The translations under genes and the position numbers were made by a program. 64,000 bases of DNA from Alphaproteobacteria bacterium Ga0077535 (GTDB taxonomy: Bacteria > Pseudomonadota > Alphaproteobacteria > Caulobacterales > Aquidulcibacteraceae): positions 1-64,000 of the forward strand of contig LNEK01000012.1 in NCBI GenBank assembly GCA_001464425.1, read 5' to 3'. Within the stretch, counting starts at the first letter, position 1. The number at the start of each line of letters is the position of its first letter. Shown here one piece after another: positions 1-10,463 of the stretch. The notes below the pieces were generated by a model. It did not search any database. It worked only from the letters and a program-made list of their open reading frames with translations, and had not been told where the DNA came from.

Positions 1-468
1 AATGTGATGTGGCCGTTGACTGCTTTCACCGAAGAGAATGGCGCGACGCGCCTTTGGCCAGGCAGTCACACGGACGCGCTGGATCGCAGCATTGATCCCG
101 CTCGGTCGATCCCCGCGGAGATGCAGCCGGGTGATGCGTTGGTCTTCCTCGGCGCGCTGACGCACGGCGCTGGCGAGAACCGGTCAAGCGCGCCGCGCGA
201 CGGCATCATTGTCTCCTATTGTTTGGGTTGGCTCAAGCAGTACGAAAACCAGTTCTTGGCTTACCCGCCCGCGGTCGCGCGGTCTTTCCCAGAGCCATTA
301 CAGCGGCTCATCGGTTACCAGATGCATCGCCCCAACCTGGGCGGCTGGGAGGGGCGCGATCCGATTTGCGCGCTAGAGGACGGGCAGTGCCTGCCTGGAC
401 CGCACATTGACGCGCTGACGCCGGATATCGCTCGTCAACTAAAGGCTCATTATGGCGAGGACGCCTGA
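1..468 (+). CDS. Phytanoyl-CoA dioxygenase (PhyH) family protein, C-terminal part
   Basis: Fe(II)/2-oxoglutarate-dependent oxygenase of the PhyH family; substrate unknown. The frame is open to the left edge, so the true start and the first metal ligands lie outside the window. Visible are the double-stranded beta-helix end with GATRLWPGSH and, later, the distal His/Arg pair in THGAGENRS, which in this family bind iron and 2-oxoglutarate. It overlaps the GntR gene by 17 bp, so the two are probably co-transcribed. Whether it acts on the lasso peptide downstream or only shares a regulator cannot be told from sequence. Confidence 0.8.
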   Translation, partial: NVMWPLTAFTEENGATRLWPGSHTDALDRSIDPARSIPAEMQPGDALVFLGALTHGAGENRSSAPRDGIIVSYCLGWLKQYENQFLAYPPAVARSFPEPLQRLIGYQMHRPNLGGWEGRDPICALEDGQCLPGPHIDALTPDIARQLKAHYGEDA

Positions 469-1072
469 GACGCCAACATCGGAGCGGGCTTACCAGGAGA
501 TCAAGGCAAGGCTGATGGCCGGGCGCTTTCGGCTACGTCAGCGTCTTGACGCAACCGCGATTGCTACGGACCTGGCCGTTTCGACAACGCCCGTGCGGGA
601 AGCACTGCTGCGCCTCACGGCCGAGCGGCTTGTGGGCTTTCGGCCTTCGCACGGGTTCAGCGTGGCGATGTGGAGCGAAAGCGGATTGCGCGATCTCTAT
701 CGATGGCGTGGTGAGCTCGCAGAGCTTGCACTGAACAGCGTAAGCTCATTGAGCCCGCCCATAAATATTGTTGCCCGCGACTATCCGGACCGTACGGCTG
801 CGCTGTTGACGGCATTGCAAAGTGGCGCCCACGGCGAACTCGTGGCGTCAGCTCGCAACGCCGATGACAGGTTGCACATTGCGCGCGTGGCGGAGCGCGA
901 ACTTTGGGCTGATGTTGAGGAAGAACTCGCTCTCTTGGACCAAGCGAGAGAAAAGGGCGACGTCAGCGGCTTGAAGATCGCACTCCGGTTTTACCATGAT
1001 AAACGCGTAGCGGCCGCAAAGGCGATCCGTGACTGCGCGGCGTTGCTAGGGCTGCCGTCGAACGGTGCCTGA
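452..1072 (+). CDS. GntR-family transcriptional regulator
   Basis: DNA-binding regulator of 206 residues. An N-terminal winged helix-turn-helix (about residues 10-75, with AIATDLAVSTTPVREALLRL) is typical of the GntR/FadR branch. The C-terminal half is all-helical, shorter than a full FCD domain, and its ligand is not evident. It overlaps the end of the PhyH gene and stands 111 bp before the first lasso precursor. Clusters of this isopeptidase-containing lasso type often carry a GntR gene, so control of the precursor promoter is a reasonable inference, not shown. Confidence 0.85.
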   Translation: MARTPETPTSERAYQEIKARLMAGRFRLRQRLDATAIATDLAVSTTPVREALLRLTAERLVGFRPSHGFSVAMWSESGLRDLYRWRGELAELALNSVSSLSPPINIVARDYPDRTAALLTALQSGAHGELVASARNADDRLHIARVAERELWADVEEELALLDQAREKGDVSGLKIALRFYHDKRVAAAKAIRDCAALLGLPSNGA

Positions 1073-1183
1073 CGGGCTGCTAGAACCCCGCAAAATATTC
1101 ATGTTTATAAACTCTCTTATCGACGTCAGTAGACGCAGCATCGCTCCTGGGCCGAGCCCCGGTCCTTCAAAGGAGCTTTGACA
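1073..1183 (+). promoter_or_regulatory. Probable promoter region of the lasso precursor operon
   Basis: An AT-rich tract (CAAAATATTCATGTTTATAA, about 1090-1109) stands out in otherwise GC-rich DNA between the GntR gene and the first precursor. I cannot assign firm -35 and -10 boxes. A clear ribosome binding site, AAGGAG, lies at 1169-1174, ten bases before the precursor ATG. Confidence 0.4.
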
Positions 1184-1294
1184 ATGCGCGACGACAACAC
1201 CTTCGAACAAGATCCGATCGAACTGGGCGCCGTCTCCGAGCAAACGCACGGTGGCGTGGACACCGAAATCGAAGACCGTGAGCCGCTTTTCTAA
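1184..1294 (+). CDS. Lasso peptide precursor 1
   Basis: A 36-residue ORF preceded by AAGGAG. The leader (residues 1-22) contains IELGAVSEQTH and the core is predicted as GGVDTEIEDREPLF (residues 23-36). The Thr two residues before the core and a Gly at core position 1 are hallmarks of lasso precursors. The isopeptide ring would join Gly1 to Glu8 or Asp9; both acids are present, so ring size is open. The core has only 14 residues, is very acidic and would leave a tail of five or six residues. A second precursor with the same plan follows, then B and C genes. Lasso identity is strongly supported by those neighbours. Confidence 0.87.
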   Translation: MRDDNTFEQDPIELGAVSEQTHGGVDTEIEDREPLF

Positions 1295-1307
1295 GCGGCA
1301 CGAGGAT

Positions 1308-1332
1308 GCGCGCGGGACGTGTTCCCGCGCGC
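1308..1332 (+). repeat. Perfect 10-bp stem-loop between the two lasso precursors
   Basis: GCGCGCGGGA at 1308-1317 is matched exactly by TCCCGCGCGC at 1323-1332, around the 5-nt loop CGTGT. There is no U-tract after it, so it is more likely an mRNA stabilising or partial attenuation element than a full terminator. It would separate precursor 1 from precursor 2 and the B and C genes in the transcript. Confidence 0.75.
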
Positions 1333-1367
1333 TGGCTCTATCAGACGAAAAGCGGACGGAGTGAAAC

Positions 1368-1463
1368 ATGTCGGCTCAAGAAGTAATCGAACTGGGCGCG
1401 GTGTCGGCCGAGACCCAAGGCGGGGTAGATCATCTCATGGAGGACCGCGACCCGCTGATGTGA
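1368..1463 (+). CDS. Lasso peptide precursor 2
   Basis: A 31-residue ORF with ACGGAG eight bases before its ATG. It is a clear paralogue of precursor 1: the leader has IELGAVSAETQ, with Thr at -2, and the predicted core is GGVDHLMEDRDPLM (14 residues). Core positions 1-4, 8-10 and 12-13 match precursor 1 exactly (GGVD, EDR, PL), while 5-7, 11 and the last residue vary. Glu8 and Asp9 are again both available for ring closure. The B gene starts four bases after the stop, so this copy is tightly coupled to the processing enzymes. Confidence 0.87.
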   Translation: MSAQEVIELGAVSAETQGGVDHLMEDRDPLM

Positions 1464-1467
1464 ACCG

Positions 1468-2112
1468 GTGAGCGGATCCACACCACAATTGCGCGCTGAT
1501 GTGTTCATGGCGTTCGCCGACGAGACAATTGTTTTCCTCGATCTCCAGGCTGATCGCTACTGTGCACTGAGCCGCGCAATCTCCTTGCGCCTTGTCGATG
1601 AGTTGAGGCGCGGCGCGCCGCTGTCGGGGGAGGTCGTGCAAAGCCTCCGCGCGGCGCGCGTGCTCGCGGACGGCGCCGGACGTCCGCTTGCGCTAGCGAA
1701 AGCCCCAACGCCATCACGCGAGGTCTCCGCTAGTCGTCCTCGGGTTTTCTCCATAGCGCGCGCAGCTTTGTGCCGCGGGCGTGCGTCGAGCCTGCTCCGC
1801 GGGCGCCATATCAGTTCAATAGTCTCCAAGTGGCGGGCGCGACGGAAAAGTCCCGAACGATCTGAGGAAGCGATCGTCCGCATGGCGGCCGCCTTTTCTG
1901 CGAGCCGCCCGCTGGGGGCTGCGCGCAATGCGTGCCTTCGCGAGACGCTTGCGCTGCTTCTATTTCTGGGTCCGCGCGGGGCAGCGGTCGATTGGGTCTT
2001 TGGGGTGAAGGGCGCGCCGTTCGCAGCTCATTGCTGGGCGCAGCTGGGCGACCAGGTGCTGAATGACAGCGCCGATCACGCACGCGGTTATACGCCAATC
2101 ATGGTCGTCTAG
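1468..2112 (+). CDS. Lasso peptide B protein (leader recognition plus transglutaminase-like peptidase)
   Basis: ATP-dependent leader peptidase that removes the leader after the Thr-X site. At 214 residues it has the fused form usual in Proteobacteria. An N-terminal PqqD-like recognition domain (about 1-80, including DETIVFLDLQADRYCALS) is followed by a transglutaminase-like domain with a Cys156, His188, Asp200 triad (NACLRE, AAHCWA, VLNDS). It starts with GTG four bases after precursor 2 and ends two bases before the cyclase gene. The region between the two domains, about residues 75-135, is Arg-rich and poorly conserved. Confidence 0.9.
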   Translation: MSGSTPQLRADVFMAFADETIVFLDLQADRYCALSRAISLRLVDELRRGAPLSGEVVQSLRAARVLADGAGRPLALAKAPTPSREVSASRPRVFSIARAALCRGRASSLLRGRHISSIVSKWRARRKSPERSEEAIVRMAAAFSASRPLGAARNACLRETLALLLFLGPRGAAVDWVFGVKGAPFAAHCWAQLGDQVLNDSADHARGYTPIMVV

Positions 2113-2114
2113 GC

Positions 2115-3863
2115 ATGAACCGATTCATAGCGCTGGTTTGGAGCTATCAGTCCGAAGTCGCGTCTAAGGACGCCGCTAATGTCCTTGCCGCGATGGCGAC
2201 CACTCAGTCGGCCTGGGTGCATCGTGTCGATGCGCCTGGACTCTTGGTGCTGGAGGCGCCGCATCGATCCAACGCCGAGGAGGGCTTGCACGTTGGCGCT
2301 CACGTGAGCTTTGTGGGGACTGTATTCGCAGGCCGATCTCGCGCTCAGTCCGCGCAATTGCGCGACTCAGAATTCATTGAGAGTCGGGGGGCCGTCGCCT
2401 TTACGCGTGTTTGGGGCCGTTACGTTTGCTTCATTCGTGACGTCCCCAACGCATGTGTCTTCATCGTTCGCGACCCGTCTGGCGCGCTGCCATGCTTCGT
2501 TGCGAGGCGCGGCAACGCCTTCATCTTTTTATCCCACGGTGAAGATATTGATGCACTTGGACTGGGACCGACTGCAATCGACTGGAGCTATGTAGCTCTG
2601 AGATTGGCGAACAACCGCCACATCACGACCAAGACGGGCCTCGATGGTGTATCAGAACTGAAGCCTGGCGCGGTGGCTCGTGTCGGGCAATCACGGCTCT
2701 CCATCGAGCAGGTCTGGCGCCCTGATGCGTTTGCGAGGAGGCCAATCGCGCAGCAAGGGGCGAAGTCCGCGCTTCGGGACGCTGTGGAGACGGCATGTGG
2801 CGCCTGGGCCGATTGCTTTCCCCGTTTCGGTCTTCGCCTTTCAGGTGGGCTGGATTCAAGCATCGTGCTCGCGTGCATGCCTGACCCATCGCGGGTGCGC
2901 GCCATAAATTTCGCGACCTCCAATCTTGAAGGAGATGAGCGTGCTTACGCGCGCGCGGCGGCGCAGTTCGCGGGCGCGTCCCTGTTTGAAGCCCGGCGTG
3001 ATCCTTGCCGCGTGAACCTACAAGCCGCAGTCCAGCTCAAACCGGCGCTCAACCCGCCATTATGGTTGGCTGATGGCGAGACCGATGAAACAGAAGCTGC
3101 CTTCGCCGCTCAACACGGTGTTACGGCGTTCTTTTCAGGCCGAGGTGGTGACAACGTTTTTTTCCGTACATTGCGAAATGACGTGCTAGCTGATCGGTTG
3201 ATTGCCCGCGGACCGGGCCTCGGGTTTTGGCGCCGCTGCTGGTCGCACGCCGCAGAGACCGGCGCGCCATTTTGGGGAAGCGCCTTTAGCGCTTGGCGCC
3301 AGGCGCTGAGCCGCGATGCAGCGGCGCCCAGAACTCATCCGACGTACCTCACTTCCAAGGCTCTTAGCCTTTTGCCGGCGGCCGAGGAAGCGCCCGAAGG
3401 TCTGCTCCCAGGCAAACGTCTGCATCTCGCGCTGATAGAAGATCGCCTCAACTATTTCGATTGGCGTTCGCACGCAGATTACATCTATCCGCTTGTCGCC
3501 CAACCGGTTCTTGAAGCGTGTCTCGGCCTTCCGACCTTTGTGCTGTCACCCGGCGGGAAAGACCGCGGCCTCGTGCGAGACGCCTTTGCTGGGCGCATCG
3601 CCCCACAGGTATTGCAGCGCCGCTCTAAAGGGCAGACCAGCGCCTACCTCGCTCAGATTCTGCTGCTGCAGCTTCCGTTCCTGCGCGCATACCTTCTAGA
3701 AGGTGCGCTCGTTGGGCACCGCCTTGTTTCACACGACGTGTTGTCTGCCATATTGAGCGAAGCCAGCATATTGCGGGCCTCAGCAAATTTGCCTCGCATC
3801 GTCGGCTTATTGAGTGTCGAGGCCTGGTTGCGCAATCTGCCGCGAGGCGTCGCTCTCGGCTAA
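2115..3863 (+). CDS. Lasso cyclase (C protein, asparagine synthetase-like)
   Basis: Forms the isopeptide bond between the N-terminal Gly of the core and a Glu or Asp side chain after activating the side chain with ATP. It has 582 residues. The N-terminal glutaminase-like fold lacks the catalytic Cys2 (the protein begins MNRF), as is normal for lasso cyclases. The synthetase domain carries the pyrophosphate motif SGGLDSS near residue 247. It ends in a 57-bp tail-to-tail overlap with the isopeptidase gene on the other strand. It completes the A-A-B-C set; no ABC exporter gene follows. Confidence 0.9.
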   Translation: MNRFIALVWSYQSEVASKDAANVLAAMATTQSAWVHRVDAPGLLVLEAPHRSNAEEGLHVGAHVSFVGTVFAGRSRAQSAQLRDSEFIESRGAVAFTRVWGRYVCFIRDVPNACVFIVRDPSGALPCFVARRGNAFIFLSHGEDIDALGLGPTAIDWSYVALRLANNRHITTKTGLDGVSELKPGAVARVGQSRLSIEQVWRPDAFARRPIAQQGAKSALRDAVETACGAWADCFPRFGLRLSGGLDSSIVLACMPDPSRVRAINFATSNLEGDERAYARAAAQFAGASLFEARRDPCRVNLQAAVQLKPALNPPLWLADGETDETEAAFAAQHGVTAFFSGRGGDNVFFRTLRNDVLADRLIARGPGLGFWRRCWSHAAETGAPFWGSAFSAWRQALSRDAAAPRTHPTYLTSKALSLLPAAEEAPEGLLPGKRLHLALIEDRLNYFDWRSHADYIYPLVAQPVLEACLGLPTFVLSPGGKDRGLVRDAFAGRIAPQVLQRRSKGQTSAYLAQILLLQLPFLRAYLLEGALVGHRLVSHDVLSAILSEASILRASANLPRIVGLLSVEAWLRNLPRGVALG

Positions 3864-5912
3864 AAGCGCACGCCAGGCGCGCCAGCGCGCGTACTCATCG
3901 CCAAACGCCGCGCCCTCGATCTCGCGCTGCATCAGCCAGAACTCGAACCATCTGAGGCTCCTTTGGTAGATGGCGAGCCGATGTCGAGGCCGCCATTTTA
4001 CATGGTACTCATCCGGAAACACAAAGAGGTCGAAGGGTTTGTCGAGGTCGGAGAACGTGCGTTGCGCCTGCAACATGAAGAGCGCTTCGCGATCGGCGAC
4101 CTGGGCGAGGATCGGCGCGGCTACGCGAGCGGCGTTTCGAGACAGCGATACATCGTCCCAGAACTGAATATCGTCAGACCCGCGCCCATGAAGGCGCATT
4201 GCCTCACGCTGGCGGTCTGAGGTCAAGTAATACGACATCGGGTCATGCACGCCGCTGCTGATGGCCGCGGCGGCGATGCAGGCACAATGGATAAGACCAA
4301 AGACAGCGGTCTCGGCGCCGTCGCTCAAACCTGTCACGCCCACGCGCGCGCGATCGGCGATTCCCATCTCGACCATACGATCAATGCCGGAAGTCAGCGC
4401 CGCCAAAGTTCGGCGGCGTTCGGAAAGTCCTTCCCATTCTCGCCGATCGATCTCGTCTGCGTCCCGAACAACAGCGCGCAACGCGATCGGGTCAGGCCGC
4501 TCCAGCGCCAGCACGGCAAAGCCGGCGCGCACGAAAGCTTGAATGGGGTATTCGTCCCCGACGCCGCCGCGCAGAAGGCCGGTCGCGCGATACTGCACAA
4601 TGATGAGCGGGTGAGGATCTCGTGCATCGGGCGGCGTGAGATAATAGCCGAACACTTCATCCCCCCCGGGGCTGCGCCATTCAAGCTTCCGCGCCGGCGC
4701 GAAGGCGGTCTCTGGCACAGCCGGATTGGCGTCGACAAGCGGACGCACTGCGCCGCTGGCGTAGTCGACGGATACGATCCGTCGCGGGCGCGTCGGGCCC
4801 TCGTGAAGACAAATCGCATCTGTGCGCCTTGGCGTGCACACGCGAATGACGTCATCTGTCACGACGAGCGGACGGACGGTGTTCGTGTCAATATCCCATA
4901 GATACAGGCCGTGGCGGCTGAGCCCCCAACCCTCGCGCCGAACAAACAGGACGCTCGTCTCGTCACGCGCGGCCAGTTCCACAATGTAGCCTTCGCATTC
5001 CGGCGCGCCGCACCGCACATCACGACTTTCATGCGTGGCGAAAAGCGTGAGCGGTGGTGCGCTTCCTGCCGCATCTGGGGAAGATGGTTCAGTCCACGCG
5101 GCCCCGTCGCGTCCAAGCCTGATGAAGTCGCGCACATCGCGCCCTGACAGGAAGGCAGGCCGGGTTACGGGCGCAGACGCAAACAGGGTCGCGCTCCGCC
5201 CGGCGCCCATTGTAGTTGAAATGGGACTGCGTCTGTGAGTTTGGAAGCGTTCAAGCTCTTGCGCGTTTGCGGTGCGTTCGCGTCCCATAGGCACGTCGAC
5301 ATAACGCACCTCGCGGTTCGTTTCGAACCCGCGGAGCGGAAAGAGAGCGTGAAACACATCGAACCGGTCATCAAAGCGATACCCGAGGTCGCCTTCATCA
5401 GCGCGCGCGACTTCTCGCTGTGCTTCTGAGGGTGTGCTGGTGAAGAGGATGCCCCGGCCATCGCCGCTCCACACCAAGTCTTCAACGTCACCGCTCGTCA
5501 TAAAAAGTCGACAGCGCATCCGCCGCAATTCGCAGGTCTGCAACGCGGTGCGCCCATCGCGGCGCACCAGCATGGCGACGGCGCGTCCGTCAGAAGTCCA
5601 ACGCGGCTCCAGCGTCATCCACATGCCGGTTCGACGCCCAAGTCCGGCGAGAACTGGCATCGCGATGGCGCCTCCATCGCTGAGTTCGCGAATGTCGCCA
5701 GTAGCGAAGTCGACCAAGCACCACACGGAGTTGTAGTCGTCGCGTTCTACGTCGGCTTGCTGAACCTGATAGACCGCGCGAGTTGCGTCTGGGGACAGAC
5801 TCAAACCCGAAATGTCGCGCAGGGAGATAAGCTCAGCAACGCCGACGCTTGTCGCCGGCTCTATTTGTGGCGGCGTGCACGATAGGGCCGCGGCGATCGC
5901 CCATGTCAGCAT
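3807..5912 (-). CDS. Lasso peptide isopeptidase (AtxE2-like, S9 prolyl oligopeptidase family)
   Basis: Serine hydrolase that opens the isopeptide ring of a lasso peptide and so linearises it. A long beta-propeller N-terminal half precedes an alpha/beta hydrolase domain with GLSDG around Ser530, an Asp near residue 606 (QVADRE) and His near 637 (DEYHVK). The 701-residue length fits the AtxE family. The N-terminus (WAIAAALSC) looks like a lipoprotein signal with Cys12, which would place it in the periplasm, but the lipobox is not ideal. It begins two bases after the TonB receptor gene, so uptake and cleavage are co-expressed. Its 3' end overlaps the cyclase gene. Confidence 0.88.
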   Translation of the reverse strand: MLTWAIAAALSCTPPQIEPATSVGVAELISLRDISGLSLSPDATRAVYQVQQADVERDDYNSVWCLVDFATGDIRELSDGGAIAMPVLAGLGRRTGMWMTLEPRWTSDGRAVAMLVRRDGRTALQTCELRRMRCRLFMTSGDVEDLVWSGDGRGILFTSTPSEAQREVARADEGDLGYRFDDRFDVFHALFPLRGFETNREVRYVDVPMGRERTANAQELERFQTHRRSPISTTMGAGRSATLFASAPVTRPAFLSGRDVRDFIRLGRDGAAWTEPSSPDAAGSAPPLTLFATHESRDVRCGAPECEGYIVELAARDETSVLFVRREGWGLSRHGLYLWDIDTNTVRPLVVTDDVIRVCTPRRTDAICLHEGPTRPRRIVSVDYASGAVRPLVDANPAVPETAFAPARKLEWRSPGGDEVFGYYLTPPDARDPHPLIIVQYRATGLLRGGVGDEYPIQAFVRAGFAVLALERPDPIALRAVVRDADEIDRREWEGLSERRRTLAALTSGIDRMVEMGIADRARVGVTGLSDGAETAVFGLIHCACIAAAAISSGVHDPMSYYLTSDRQREAMRLHGRGSDDIQFWDDVSLSRNAARVAAPILAQVADREALFMLQAQRTFSDLDKPFDLFVFPDEYHVKWRPRHRLAIYQRSLRWFEFWLMQREIEGAAFGDEYARWRAWRALLAESDASRQIAQPGLDTQ

Positions 5913-5914
5913 GG

Positions 5915-8900
5915 CTAGAAGCGCGTCCGCAACTCAACGGCGACGAAACGGCCAAGCGGATCGGCGTTGCTCGGGTCGTACCCGACGCCCGCTGCGTTGT
6001 TGACGAACGGCGGATCCTCGTCGAACGCGTTGACAACCGAGAGCGACAGTTCAGGACCGCGGCCGCTTTCGGGCGCGCCAAACCGCCATCCCAGATGCAA
6101 ATCAATCGTGGTCCACGCATCGACGGCGCGGGAGGGCGTGCTCAGATTGTCGGTAAACTCGTCGGTGTAGTTGACGAAGGCCGAGGCGTTGAAACGGCCG
6201 AGGTCATAGGTCGCGCCGAGGCGCGCCTTGAGGTCCACCGGGTTGCCAACCGTGTCCACGACATTGACCGCGTTTGCGAGTGGGGAAGCTGCGCGCAAAA
6301 AATCAATCAGATAGGTGGCGTCCGCTCGAAGCGTGAGTTCGCCAGGACCGATGTCTGCTGTATACGACACGGCCAAATCCAAGCCGCGCACGTCCGTGCG
6401 CGCCAGATTGGTGGAACGCGCATCGACAATGACGGTGATATCGCTCGCGCTGAAGCCGCCGCTGGTGCCGAGCGCCTGCGCTTCGGCAAGAAGTGTCGCG
6501 ATCTCGGATGGATCGGGGCTGCGATCGATCAGTGACGCAAACTCGGACGCTGGATTGAGCGCCCCTGCGATATTGGTGATGCTGGCAATGCGATCGGAGA
6601 ACCCGACGTCGAAGTAATTGAGATCGGCGCGAAAGCCCGAGGCGGGCGGCGCGTAGGTTACGCCCGCCGACCAGCTTTCAGCGCGTTGCTCTTGCAGGTC
6701 GGGATTCGCGCCAAGCACCAAGATGATGTTGCTGCGTCCGCTGGGGGCGCCTGCATCCGTGATGTTGAGACCGCGCACTTGCCGGCGCGCCAGCGTGCCG
6801 TCTGGATCCAAATCGGAGAGATTAGGGGCGCGGAAAGACTGGCCATAAGAGGCGCGCAAGCTCAGCGCATTTGAAAGGTCCCACCGAAGGCCGAGCTTCG
6901 GATTGAACGTCTCGCCGAAGTCGCTGTAGCGCTCATATCGTCCAGCGAGCGAAAGATCGACGCGCTCGCCGATCGGCGGAGGCAGCCCAGGACCAAACAG
7001 GGGGACTAACACTTCAGCGAAGGCGGCCTCGACATTGCGATCGTTCTTGCTCGATATCGACGGCGTCGGCGCGGCCGTTGTGGTGAAGCTTACTTCGCTG
7101 ATCTCGAAAAATTCGTGGCGATAGTCGCCCCCAAACGCCAAGCGAACATCGCCGGCCGGTAAAGAGAAGAGCGGTCCGTCGGCTTTGAGGGACATGCTCC
7201 AGGTTTCCGACAAAAGGTCGCTGTGGCCAAAGCCACGGATCGACGCGATGGTTGCCGGATTGGTGAAGGCGCCGTCGCCGAACGGGTTAAAGGCGATGTT
7301 GGGATCGTTGCTGGCGAGCGCGGCGGTGAGCGCCGGCATGTTGATTAAGTTGCGTCTGGTGTGATCGCTGGCGACGCGCCCATAGGCCAACTGCGGTTCA
7401 AGCCGCCAAGCCTCGCTCAGGTCCCAGCGCAGTCCCGCGGCCAAGTCGAGTGTTGTTGTTTCGCCATCCTCCAAACGGGGGCCGAGGTCGCGATAGAAAT
7501 CGTAGTCGGCCTGGACAGTGCGGCCAGGAAAGAGATTGTTGCGCGCTCTGAACGCGTTGCTGGCGGGTATGGTGATGCGCTGTGTGGTGTGTGCGTTGGC
7601 CGACAAGAAGCTACGCGACGCATAGCGGCCATCGGCAAAGATCAGCATGTTTGGCGAAAGGTCGAGTTCGGCGCTCAACACGACGGCGTGCTGTTCAATT
7701 TCGGGAAGGGCGTCGAGGCCTTCATTAGCGTTGGCCGTGTTGACAAGCCCAGCAATCAGGTCGGTTTGACGGATGTTCGTCCCATCTTGCCCGAAGGGCA
7801 CACCAAAGTTGCCGAGCCCGCTTACGATCAATGTTGCGGGATTGCCGCGCAGCGAGTCAAAATTGGCGCCGCCCAGCGCGCGAAGGTCGCTGTCAGCTAG
7901 GTAATCGCGATCTTCGGTTCGAAGCGCGGTCCGATCGAAAAATTCGTAAGCGCCGAAAAGGCGAAGGGGACCAAAATGTCGGCCCGCTGCCGTGCTAATG
8001 CGCGTCTCTTCCAGGTCGCCGTCAGTGACTGCCCCCAACCGGGCGCCCAATTCGAAACCTTCGAAATCGCGCCGTAGAATGAAATTGACGACGCCGCCGA
8101 CGGCGTCGCTGCCGTAGATGGCCGACGCGGCGTCGGGCAATACTTCAATGCGTTCGATGGCGCTCGCGGGAATGCTCGATATGTCGGTGAAGTTGCCGCG
8201 CAGGCCCATGACCGGAAGACGCCGACCATTGACCAGGGTCAGTGTCGCGTCCGCGCCCAGTCCGCGCAGATTGAGACCGGAACCGCCGCCGATATTGCCG
8301 TTCTGGAAAGAGATGTGCTGAGCGAATCCACCGTTGAACACCTGCGGCAAAGTCCGCATCAGCTCTTCAGTGGTGGAGAGGCCGCTTTGCTCAATCTCGG
8401 CCCGGTCGATCGTGACCACATTGGATCCGACAGGGGCCGCACCGCGGATACGCGTCCCGGTGACGACGATCTCCTCGTCCGCCTCGGCGTTGCTGTTCGC
8501 TTCGGCGCGAACGCGCGTCTCAGCGTTCGCGCGGCCGGGCTGGGGGCTCTGATCTTGCTCCAGCGAAAGCGTATTTATGGGCGTAATCTCGCCCCGGACA
8601 TTGGAGTTGGAAAGCAACTGGGACAGCGCTTCCTCGCGCGTGAAGCGGCCACGCACCACTGGCGCAAATTGGCCAGCAAAGCGGTCCGCTGGGACAAGTG
8701 TGCTCAGTCCGGATTGTTGCGCGTATAGTGCGAGGGCGCTGGAGAGCGGCTGGGCAGGGATATCGTACTCGATCCGGGTTTCACCAGCGAGCGTAGCGCC
8801 GTTGTTTTGAGCGCGTGCCTCAGGCGCAAACGCGAATGGCGACACGCCCAACAACAGTCCGGCAACCCAGTGTGAAACGCGCTCCGCGCGCTTGACGGTT

Positions 8901-8944
8901 TTGGTCAAGCTCACCTCCCCTTGGACCGCATGCTCGGTCTTCAA
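5915..8944 (-). CDS. TonB-dependent receptor with STN signalling domain
   Basis: Outer-membrane gated channel of 1009 residues. After the signal peptide comes an STN domain (about residues 58-130, with DIPAQPLSSALALYAQQSG) used for FecIR-type surface signalling. A TonB box-like EEIVVTGTRI, the plug (DRAEIEQSG to RRDFEGFELG) and a 22-strand barrel ending in the aromatic-terminated ELRTRF follow. It sits between fecR and the isopeptidase gene, so the likely ligand is the lasso peptide or a metal complex of it. The substrate is inferred from context only. Confidence 0.9.
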   Translation of the reverse strand: MKTEHAVQGEVSLTKTVKRAERVSHWVAGLLLGVSPFAFAPEARAQNNGATLAGETRIEYDIPAQPLSSALALYAQQSGLSTLVPADRFAGQFAPVVRGRFTREEALSQLLSNSNVRGEITPINTLSLEQDQSPQPGRANAETRVRAEANSNAEADEEIVVTGTRIRGAAPVGSNVVTIDRAEIEQSGLSTTEELMRTLPQVFNGGFAQHISFQNGNIGGGSGLNLRGLGADATLTLVNGRRLPVMGLRGNFTDISSIPASAIERIEVLPDAASAIYGSDAVGGVVNFILRRDFEGFELGARLGAVTDGDLEETRISTAAGRHFGPLRLFGAYEFFDRTALRTEDRDYLADSDLRALGGANFDSLRGNPATLIVSGLGNFGVPFGQDGTNIRQTDLIAGLVNTANANEGLDALPEIEQHAVVLSAELDLSPNMLIFADGRYASRSFLSANAHTTQRITIPASNAFRARNNLFPGRTVQADYDFYRDLGPRLEDGETTTLDLAAGLRWDLSEAWRLEPQLAYGRVASDHTRRNLINMPALTAALASNDPNIAFNPFGDGAFTNPATIASIRGFGHSDLLSETWSMSLKADGPLFSLPAGDVRLAFGGDYRHEFFEISEVSFTTTAAPTPSISSKNDRNVEAAFAEVLVPLFGPGLPPPIGERVDLSLAGRYERYSDFGETFNPKLGLRWDLSNALSLRASYGQSFRAPNLSDLDPDGTLARRQVRGLNITDAGAPSGRSNIILVLGANPDLQEQRAESWSAGVTYAPPASGFRADLNYFDVGFSDRIASITNIAGALNPASEFASLIDRSPDPSEIATLLAEAQALGTSGGFSASDITVIVDARSTNLARTDVRGLDLAVSYTADIGPGELTLRADATYLIDFLRAASPLANAVNVVDTVGNPVDLKARLGATYDLGRFNASAFVNYTDEFTDNLSTPSRAVDAWTTIDLHLGWRFGAPESGRGPELSLSVVNAFDEDPPFVNNAAGVGYDPSNADPLGRFVAVELRTRF

Positions 8945-9004: not shown

Positions 9005-9933
9005 TCAATCAGAGCGCAGCACTATCACGCCGTCGGCGCGCCGATCGGCGCTGACCCCGACATTGTTTTCCAACAATCCGAGAAACGCCTCAACGTCGTC
9101 CCCCGCCACGTATCCCGCGAGACGCACTTGCGCGGTCGCGGTGTCGGCAAACGCGAAGCGCACGCCCGAAAAGCGCGTCACCTCAGCCGCAGCTTCGCGC
9201 AAGGATTGGCCGTCGAGCGCCACCATGCGCTCGCGCCATACTAGCCGGCGATCCAGGGCGTCCCGCTCCAGAACTGAAACGGTTGGAGCGCCACCGGCCA
9301 GCTCGATCTCCTGATCGGCTGAAGCCGCCACGCTGCTGTCAGGGGAAAACAGCATCTCGCGCCGTGCTTCGACGCGTCCGCTTAGCACCGTGGTGATGGC
9401 CGCATCGGGTCCCAGTCGCACGACGAACGAGGTGCCGAGCACGCGGATCTCCCCGAACTTGGTCATCACGACGAAGGGCCGCGAGGCGTCGTGCGCAACA
9501 TTGAAAAGCGCCACGCCTTCTTCGAACCGCACGCGGCGTTCTCGATTGTGGTGCCGTCACTTAACCGCACTAAGCGCTCCTGTTCCGGCGCTGTGGCATA
9601 GACGGCGCCCGCCTCGTCTCGAAGTGGGCTGAGCGGTGAGATGACGAACAAGGCGAGAGCGGCCGCCGCCGAGAGCGCGGCGATCGCGATCGGCCGCACT
9701 GGGACCCTTGTTCTCCGATGGCCAATCTCGTGTCCGAGAGGTTCTGTCGTTAGGACGGCATCGATCTTGTCGGCTGTCGCCGAGACCGCGTCATAGGCGC
9801 GCTTGTGCGTTTCGTCCGCGGCAAGCCAAGCCTGGAACGCGTCGATGTCTTGGCGGCTGACGCGGGGCTCGTCCAAAACCACGAACCAATGCGCGGCCTC
9901 CAATTCGGCCTGTGTTGGCTCGCGGTGGGCCAT
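9005..9933 (-). pseudogene. FecR-type anti-sigma regulator, interrupted by a frameshift
   Basis: Inner-membrane sigma regulator that would pass the signal from the receptor STN domain to the FecI-type sigma factor. The N-terminal part (9466-9933) shows the cytoplasmic DUF4880 region, one membrane segment (AIAALSAAAALALFVIS) and the start of the FecR domain (VRLSDGTTIE). The rest (9005-9532) continues in another frame (VRFEEGVALFNVAHDASRPF onward to the STN-binding end). The junction is near 9530-9550, where a few bases appear to be missing. The remainder looks intact and under selection, so this is either a very recent mutation or a sequence error. It starts 11 bases after the sigma gene stop. 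Confidence 0.8.
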
Positions 9934-9944
9934 GGCAATCTGTC

Positions 9945-10463
9945 TTAAGGCGCCGAAGCGCCGCCGTCAGCGGCGGTCAGCCTGGCGTGACAAAAGGCGA
10001 TGGCCTTCAAGACGAGCCGCTGCACCTGACGCTCGCTCACGCCGAGCGCTGCAGCGACCTCGGCAGGCGGCAACAGTTCGACCCGGCGCATCAGCAGCGC
10101 CTTGCGCTCAAGTTCCGGCAGCGCCGCGATCGCAGCACGCACGGCTGCTGCCTCTTCAGCGGCAATGCAATGATCCTCGGCGCTGGGCGCGTGCGCAGCG
10201 GTCGGCACGAGATCAATGCTCGCGACGGCGCGATAGGGCGCTGCTTTTTGCCTTCGAAGTGCATCTACCGCCATGTTTTTGGCCGTCTGGAATAAGAACG
10301 CCCGAGGCGAAACGATCTGTCCGGCGTCAGCTGCGCACAGACGTACGAAACTGTCTTGTGCGATATCCTCTGCAGAGACTCTTGCGCCGAAGCGGCGCAG
10401 AAATCGCCTGAGGGCGCCAGCCTCGTTGTCGAATAGTCGCCTGAGTTCCGGTTCCCCCGTCAT
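9945..10463 (-). CDS. FecI-type ECF sigma factor
   Basis: Sigma-70 family factor of 172 residues with region 2 (GARVSAEDIAQDSFVRL, and FLFQTAKNMAVDALRRQ) and region 4 (LLPPAEVAAALGVSERQVQRLVLKA in part). Its place before fecR and the STN receptor identifies it as the FecI-like partner that would activate the receptor-isopeptidase operon when ligand binds outside. A 93-residue ORF ends ten bases upstream, so the sigma gene may share a promoter with that ORF in the controller-box region. Confidence 0.9.
   Translation of the reverse strand: MTGEPELRRLFDNEAGALRRFLRRFGARVSAEDIAQDSFVRLCAADAGQIVSPRAFLFQTAKNMAVDALRRQKAAPYRAVASIDLVPTAAHAPSAEDHCIAAEEAAAVRAAIAALPELERKALLMRRVELLPPAEVAAALGVSERQVQRLVLKAIAFCHARLTAADGGASAP

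Follow-up and report, generated by a model that had tools for sequence, protein, structure and literature searches.

Tandem 14-residue lasso peptide precursors in an isopeptidase-type gene cluster and their recurring LuxR-LuxI neighborhood

Overview

A 64,000-nucleotide stretch of DNA from Alphaproteobacteria bacterium Ga0077535 (contig LNEK01000012.1, positions 1 to 64,000, here called the window) carries two adjacent genes, A1 and A2, that almost certainly encode a pair of lasso peptide precursors. They reside in a textbook isopeptidase-type lasso cluster, which is a known kind of locus, and their cores are fresh members at the short end of that kind. The account that best fits the locus as a whole, and that we consider probable, is one of paired paralogous class II lasso peptides with a ring closed at Glu8, which are taken up again and linearized and whose expression is set by a GntR regulator and AHL signaling.

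In its available text, PMC9266682 calls the biological role of isopeptidase lasso peptides enigmatic. A recurring LuxR-LuxI neighbor offers a direct test of this role through the AHL dependence of the peptide and of its linear form. If it controls the cluster, the quorum-sensing neighborhood would be a new variation on this kind, and density control would make cycles of lasso production and untying a group behavior, not simple scavenging or antibiosis. Recognition by the isopeptidase is said to rest on the lasso loop (PMC9266682, text available in part), and the 14-residue pair is a small natural test case for the minimal lasso length that is still recognized.

Two precursors with 14-residue cores

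Both precursors are encoded on the forward strand. A1 extends from an ATG at position 1184 to a stop codon ending at 1294 (36 amino acids) and consists of the leader MRDDNTFEQDPIELGAVSEQTH (1184-1249) and the 14-residue core GGVDTEIEDREPLF (1250-1291). A2 occupies positions 1368-1463 (31 amino acids), with the leader MSAQEVIELGAVSAETQ (1368-1418) and the core GGVDHLMEDRDPLM (1419-1460), also of 14 residues. The cores follow directly after Thr(-2)-His in A1 and Thr(-2)-Gln in A2. The Pfam Subterisin model (PF24178, cut-off 27 bits) is passed only by A2 (29.8 bits, E = 5.8e-7), and A1 falls below it (22.1 bits, E = 1.6e-4). Both are below the 33-bit cut-off of the NCBIfam benenodin model NF033522, at 21.2 bits for A1 and 27.8 bits for A2.

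An alignment of 22 precursors shows no variation at Thr(-2) or at the Gly of the LG motif, and the fixed spacing between them supports the predicted cleavage site. Thr(-2) is the known recognition residue (PMC10368454, text available in part). In the wider survey described below, cores were selected by the rule LG-x2-[ASTVN]-x2-T-x, which makes the spacing circular there. The features that mark the class II isopeptidase type, a leader Thr at -2, Gly at core position 1 and an acid within positions 7-9, are present in both A1 and A2. An earlier note on this DNA had read the two genes as tandem lasso precursors with 14-residue cores whose only differences fall at positions 5-7, 11 and 14. The sequence bears out these positions, and the family matches, the surrounding cluster and the occurrence of the same pair in four relatives bear out the reading itself.

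Tandem A1-A2 genes with identical cores are found in these four relatives (G027, G018, G004 and G015). Across the five genomes, four core codons vary, all silently and none with a change of amino acid, and the leaders have four codons with amino acid changes and four with silent ones. Two more distant relatives, with C proteins 53% (G009) and 51% (G025) identical to that of the window, carry the tandem 14-residue cores GGEKAQFEDRDPLT and GGVDHMIEDRDPLV and the 14-residue core GGVQEQLEEQDPLI, respectively. A scan of genome contigs with a degenerate core pattern returned four stretches, in lasso contigs of G027, G009, G018 and G015. These belong to relatives already counted and are therefore not independent. 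Four core fragments of the precursors had no text match in the literature searched.

A precursor profile built from the 22 sequences matched 110 places in 57 of the 398 genomes of the order. The fixed-spacing rule yielded 87 distinct cores, or 86 after removal of one out-of-context row with an S start; this survey covers rule-fitting cores and is incomplete for the 110 profile matches. Core lengths are 14 (five cores), 16 (6), 17 (8), 18 (16), 19 (16), 20 (19), 21 (9), 23 (3), 24 (2) and 25 residues (2). All five 14-residue cores belong to the window clade, and the other 81 have 16 to 25 residues. Applied to 19 plasmid isopeptidase loci, the same rule found cores at 16, with lengths between 21 and 24 residues, and none at the other three. 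Fourteen residues is thus the lower end of the isopeptidase type within this survey, not of lasso peptides overall. The suggestion that the window cores are at or below the shortest lasso cores was too strong, since huascopeptin has 13 residues, with a Gly1-Asp7 ring (PMC12427821, text available in part), but within the set of 86 they do belong to the five shortest.

Biosynthesis and downstream genes

Gene content, gene order, family matches and conservation can be read from the sequence itself. The cluster is arranged in the order GntR, A1, A2, B, C, AtxE2-like isopeptidase, TonB receptor, FecR and sigma factor. In the available text of PMC9266682, isopeptidase clusters are described as having a near-constant order, with GntR before the precursor and TonB and sigma/anti-sigma genes after the isopeptidase.

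The B protein (1501..2112, forward strand; start uncertain, GTG 1501 or ATG 1507) combines an RRE-like N-terminus with a B2 cysteine protease. It matches NCBIfam NF033537 at 72.6 bits (E = 3.8e-20, cut-off 33), and Cys144 and His176 are among seven invariant columns in 29 sequences. Its predicted structure has a pLDDT of 89.5. The RRE part contains the motif VFLDLxxDRY in the consensus and is modeled as three strands followed by two helices. A Foldseek search with B gave 57 matches at E ≤ 10 and none at E ≤ 0.001. TbiB1 ranked third in that search, a non-significant match (E = 0.89, 30% identity over 50 columns). Sequence searches found no PDB relative of C or B (E thresholds of 0.001 and 1). 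The C protein (2115..3863, forward strand) is an asparagine-synthase-like lasso macrolactam synthetase that passes the Pfam Asn_synthase model PF00733 (71.2 bits, E = 1.6e-19, cut-off 21) and does not reach the cut-off of either lasso cyclase model (NF033535, NF033561).

The remaining genes are on the reverse strand. The AtxE2-family isopeptidase (3807..5912) scores 609 bits against NCBIfam NF033523, which has a cut-off of 400 that was exceeded in none of 14 control genomes. It aligns with AtxE2 (5txc) at E = 4.4e-81, including the GLSDG serine motif. Next are a TonB-dependent receptor (5915..8944; Pfam barrel E = 8.6e-43, plug E = 4e-21), a FecR-like anti-sigma gene (9005..9933) and the reading frame of an ECF-type sigma factor (9945..10463). 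The last two were named from their position and the look of their sequences, the FecR-like gene with annotated plasmid clusters as the model. When its three frames were read and compared with G004, G015 and G027, the FecR-like gene proved to be broken near 9.54 kb, and it is shorter than its longer open counterparts in these three genomes. The break could be real or an assembly fault.

This broken frame, together with the very short cores, might suggest that the precursors are decaying copies in a locus that yields no product. Such decay is extremely unlikely, given that core changes are silent in all five genomes and that B, C, the isopeptidase and the receptor can be read as open frames of full length in G004, G015 and G027, with 89-96% identity to the window in close relatives. 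A lasso C gene does appear to have decayed elsewhere: at G023:C5:1583062-1584537 (L021, L032) it is matched in pieces, one of them with internal stop codons, and is for this reason probably decayed, while the precursor there is still open.

Ring size

As the earlier note held, ring size is formally ambiguous, because acids stand at both positions 8 and 9. However, conservation and the kinship of the cyclases favor Glu8. Position 8 is Glu in all five 14-mers, position 9 is Asp in four and Glu in one, and no acid stands at position 7 (I, M, I, F or L). A ring of the xanthomonin type, with seven residues, was considered and rejected for lack of an acid at position 7 of the five cores.

A tree of C proteins has 24 rows and a midpoint root that serves only for drawing. 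In it, a branch with 100/100 support holds the window clade of seven together with L002 and L011 and separates them from the other 15 rows. The cores adjoining L002 and L011 (AIGNTGVEPNGQPLYFK, AIGNTRVEPNGQPLFFK and AIGNRFTEMNGHPLQWM) have an acid at position 8 and none at 7 or 9, and they also share a Pro-Leu near the C-terminus. The genus holds cores with an acid only at position 8 and cores with an acid only at position 9, and in G006 C124 a 9-only core and an 8/9 core stand side by side in a single cluster. Cyclase kinship is therefore suggestive, not decisive. The invariance of Glu8 and a nearest cyclase clade with Glu8 and no acid at position 9 nevertheless favor an eight-residue ring, and we regard closure at Glu8 as very probable.

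A 14-residue core leaves six residues after a ring closed at Glu8 and five after one closed at Asp9. A genuine lasso pair with a nine-residue ring and a five-residue tail would agree with the acid at position 9 in all five 14-mers and with the 9-only cores of the same genus, such as GIYDPVKKENLVTPQARDF. This variant is unlikely, because Glu8 never changes while position 9 varies between Asp and Glu, the cores of the nearest cyclase clade lack an acid at position 9, and a tail of five residues would be shorter than the six of huascopeptin.

Acidity and neighboring metal genes

The earlier note also pointed to the many acids of the cores, to a potential for metal binding and to a surrounding region full of metal genes. 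Acid content is indeed high, with fractions of 0.29-0.36 in the 14-mers that are equalled in 4 to 7 of the 81 other cores, but net charge, at -1 to -3, is nothing unusual for the type and falls within the span of those cores (-6 to +2). Acids are kept at positions 9 and 11 in all five 14-mers. Relatives have Lys or Gln in place of Asp4, Cys is absent, and His5 occurs in only two of the five.

Proximity to metal genes is likewise real, although it proves nothing about function. The nearest metal gene found is 11.6 kb from the precursors, and efflux genes begin at 13.1 kb. The metal-efflux island (window 13101-52439) includes P-type ATPases, a CusB-like gene with CusF, cation efflux genes and MerR, and two of the genome's RND genes sit in the window. 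The island also adjoins the orthologous cluster in G015 and G027, with a different gene order, and RND genes are found near the cluster in these genomes and, less alike (53% at best), in G004. The four cluster neighbors scanned in G025 have molybdopterin-binding, 2Fe-2S, DNA polymerase III alpha and IMS (Y-family polymerase) domains, and none is a metal-efflux gene.

A metallophore role tied to the island would draw on the acid fraction, on the efflux genes that recur close by in G015 and G027 and, with less likeness, in G004, and on the siderophore-like role that has been proposed generally for isopeptidase clusters (PMC11006600 and PMC9266682, in the text available). The variable Asp4, the lack of a conserved His or Cys, the ordinary net charge and the other kinds of genes at the four G025 neighbors scanned make it highly improbable, and the proposed metal-binding potential finds no support here.

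Linkage to LuxI and PhyH

The window opens with the C-terminal part of a PhyH-family Fe(II)/2-oxoglutarate dioxygenase gene (4..468, forward strand; Pfam PhyH E = 7.9e-15). It corresponds to residues 145-299 of a 299-residue homolog in G027 (99% match), so that the contig begins inside the gene. The GntR-family regulator (452..1072, forward strand; Pfam GntR E = 6e-14) overlaps it by 17 bases. In G027 the order is LuxR-LuxI-PhyH-GntR-A1-A2-B-C, with the upstream genes co-directional with A1 (L046:2172-4644). LuxI also lies upstream of the cluster in G004, G015 and G018. Since the window starts within PhyH, an upstream LuxR-LuxI-PhyH block would have been invisible to the earlier note, and no LuxI stands beside the cluster on its own contig.

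Of the 28 lasso loci in the genus, 22 have LuxI no more than 6 kb away. The scripted denominator of 29 was reduced to 28 because G018 C261 and C506 appear to be opposite ends of a single locus, with the start of a precursor at C261:3 and A1 at C506:111. In five of the six misses (G000 C12, which is the window contig, G000 C18, G019 C71, G025 C13 and G009 C138) the upstream region is cut by a contig end. The sixth, G000 C7, is a real miss, with nearly 7 kb of upstream sequence and no LuxI. In the rest of the order, LuxI is within 6 kb of 25 of 50 lasso loci, a count uncorrected for contig ends.

The LuxI model matches 139 times in the 398 genomes, 47 of these within 6 kb of a precursor locus, and never in the 14 control genomes. 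LuxI is present in 49 of the 57 precursor genomes compared with 107 of 398 overall. This comparison ignores shared ancestry, and its p-value is therefore not taken as proof. Within the genus, 21 of 30 genomes have LuxI, including all 18 with a convincing lasso C gene; G005, G007 and G017 have LuxI but no convincing lasso C gene. Because related genomes are not independent of one another, the counts describe linkage, not the number of origins.

Three arrangements were seen among 40 regions. The arrangement is co-directional, with PhyH present, in family f1; divergent, again with PhyH, in two genera of family f5; and divergent, with no PhyH detected, in one genus of family f2. In 19 plasmid records with an isopeptidase match, LuxI, PhyH and GntR are nearby in four, all from Sphingomonadales (Sphingomonas paeninsulae and Novosphingobium sp. 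PP1Y, ES2-1 and THN1), and not in the other 15. In THN1 the isopeptidase match spans just 35% of the query, and the locus yielded no core. A survey at the class level found isopeptidases above the cut-off in 2 of 385 genomes, including the window's own; it scored the three best candidates per genome and missed one of four isopeptidases in that genome, and for these reasons carries little weight. LuxI was not found in the other positive genome (G411). The literature searched, which was mainly open-access and covered titles, abstract openings and some text, gave no report of linkage between LuxI and lasso clusters.

PhyH follows LuxI in 32 of 34 cases, and the exceptions (G009 C65 and G019 C100) are perhaps contig-end cuts. 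PhyH does so even where no lasso genes were found adjoining. This pattern leads us to lean toward a role for PhyH in the AHL pathway rather than in tailoring of the core. The HxD motif and distal His that we take to form the iron site are visible in the PhyH proteins of G027 and PP1Y.

Whether the block governs the cluster or simply travels beside it has to be judged from its distribution. Blocks of LuxR-LuxI-PhyH also occur in places where no lasso genes were found alongside, at G000:C12:119.8-121.2 kb (L151, with GntR) and at G017:C12 (L169), in a genome in which the best C-protein match reaches only 1.4e-9. Sphingomonad luxR-luxI-phyH loci with LuxI beside PhyH, as here, have been described (Gan et al. 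2013, 2015; PMC4288048, PMC3704786), and lasso genes go unmentioned in the available text of these papers, in which the strings 'asparagine synth' and 'gntR' are absent. An independent module that exerts no control over its lasso neighbors is accordingly conceivable, if somewhat doubtful. Against it, the linkage recurs in three different arrangements and appears in four of the 19 plasmid records, each from Sphingomonadales, and PhyH and GntR overlap by 17 bases in the window. We lean slightly toward AHL quorum-sensing control of the lasso cluster.

Proposed mechanism and comparison with known systems

In the favored reading, which is that of paired lasso peptides with a Glu8 ring, the B protein would bind the leader and cut after Thr(-2)-x. 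The C protein would then join Gly1 to the side chain of Glu8 to give an eight-residue ring, with D9-R10-x11-P12-L13-x14 forming the loop and tail. The peptides would exit the cell and re-enter through the TonB receptor under sigma/FecR control, as proposed for isopeptidase systems, and the isopeptidase would linearize those that return. Expression would probably be set by GntR and the upstream AHL genes LuxR-LuxI. We infer processing, the Glu8 ring, threading, re-uptake, linearization and quorum control from the genes described above. Uptake and linearization of the A1 and A2 peptides are quite probable. A tentative extension is that the isopeptidase lasso peptides of Caulobacterales and some sphingomonads may be density-controlled more generally, such that a dedicated AHL synthase/receptor pair, in many cases with a PhyH dioxygenase, switches on the peptide and TonB recovery and untying come later. 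The 14-residue pair would be the smallest version of this scheme.

Benenodin/subterisin-type clusters have the same GntR, precursor, B, C, isopeptidase, TonB, FecR and sigma genes and a leader with LG-x5-T-x. The window differs from them in its near-twin 14-residue cores and in the LuxI-PhyH genes upstream in close relatives. Xanthomonin II has 14 residues, and xanthomonins I-III are short cores that start with GG, as in the window. Their ring reportedly has seven residues, unlike any that the 14-mers could form without an acid at position 7. Astexin-2 and -3 of Asticcacaulis excentricus (AtxE2) have nine-residue rings and come from a system whose isopeptidase (5txc) is related to that of the window. 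They share with the window the presence of two precursors per cluster (PMC7549694, text available in part), but astexin-3 has 24 residues (PMC12427821, likewise in part) compared with 14 here. Huascopeptin has six residues after its ring, as the window cores would have with closure at Glu8, although its own ring has seven residues. Its host is a Streptomyces. The source was the Atacama Desert, according to the available text of PMC7549694.

Regulatory elements around the precursors

A candidate operator or promoter, consisting of the element AATATTCA and the dyad ATAA-N6-TTAT, lies upstream of A1 (1094..1120, forward strand). The sequence RAYHTTYA is present at -69 to -90 of the first precursor in 24 of 24 family-f1 regions (shuffle mean 0.68), and the dyad follows it in many of them. 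These regions remained from 28 listed originally, after three close orthologs of the window and L058 were dropped. Outside family f1, RAYHTTYA was found at 5 of 50 loci, which is not beyond chance (shuffle mean 3.46). As the motif was derived from the same 24 regions, some of them near-identical, and is no commoner than chance beyond the family, it sustains no general claim. It may be a GntR operator.

A hairpin with a 10-bp stem and a 5-nt loop occupies the A1-A2 intergenic region (1308..1332, forward strand) and was folded in five genomes. G009 has a different hairpin at the same place. The conserved hairpin possibly sets A1 dosage.

Other clusters of the genome

The genome that contains the window (G000) has four isopeptidases above the cut-off, on contigs C12, C16, C7 and C18, each beside lasso genes. 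Its seven precursors are distributed as two in the window cluster (C12), two on C18, two on C7 and one on C16. Two of these contigs, C12 and C18, both start at PhyH residue 145 (G000:C12:1 and G000:C18:1), a pattern that would arise if two lasso clusters had nearly the same upstream block and the assembly had broken there.
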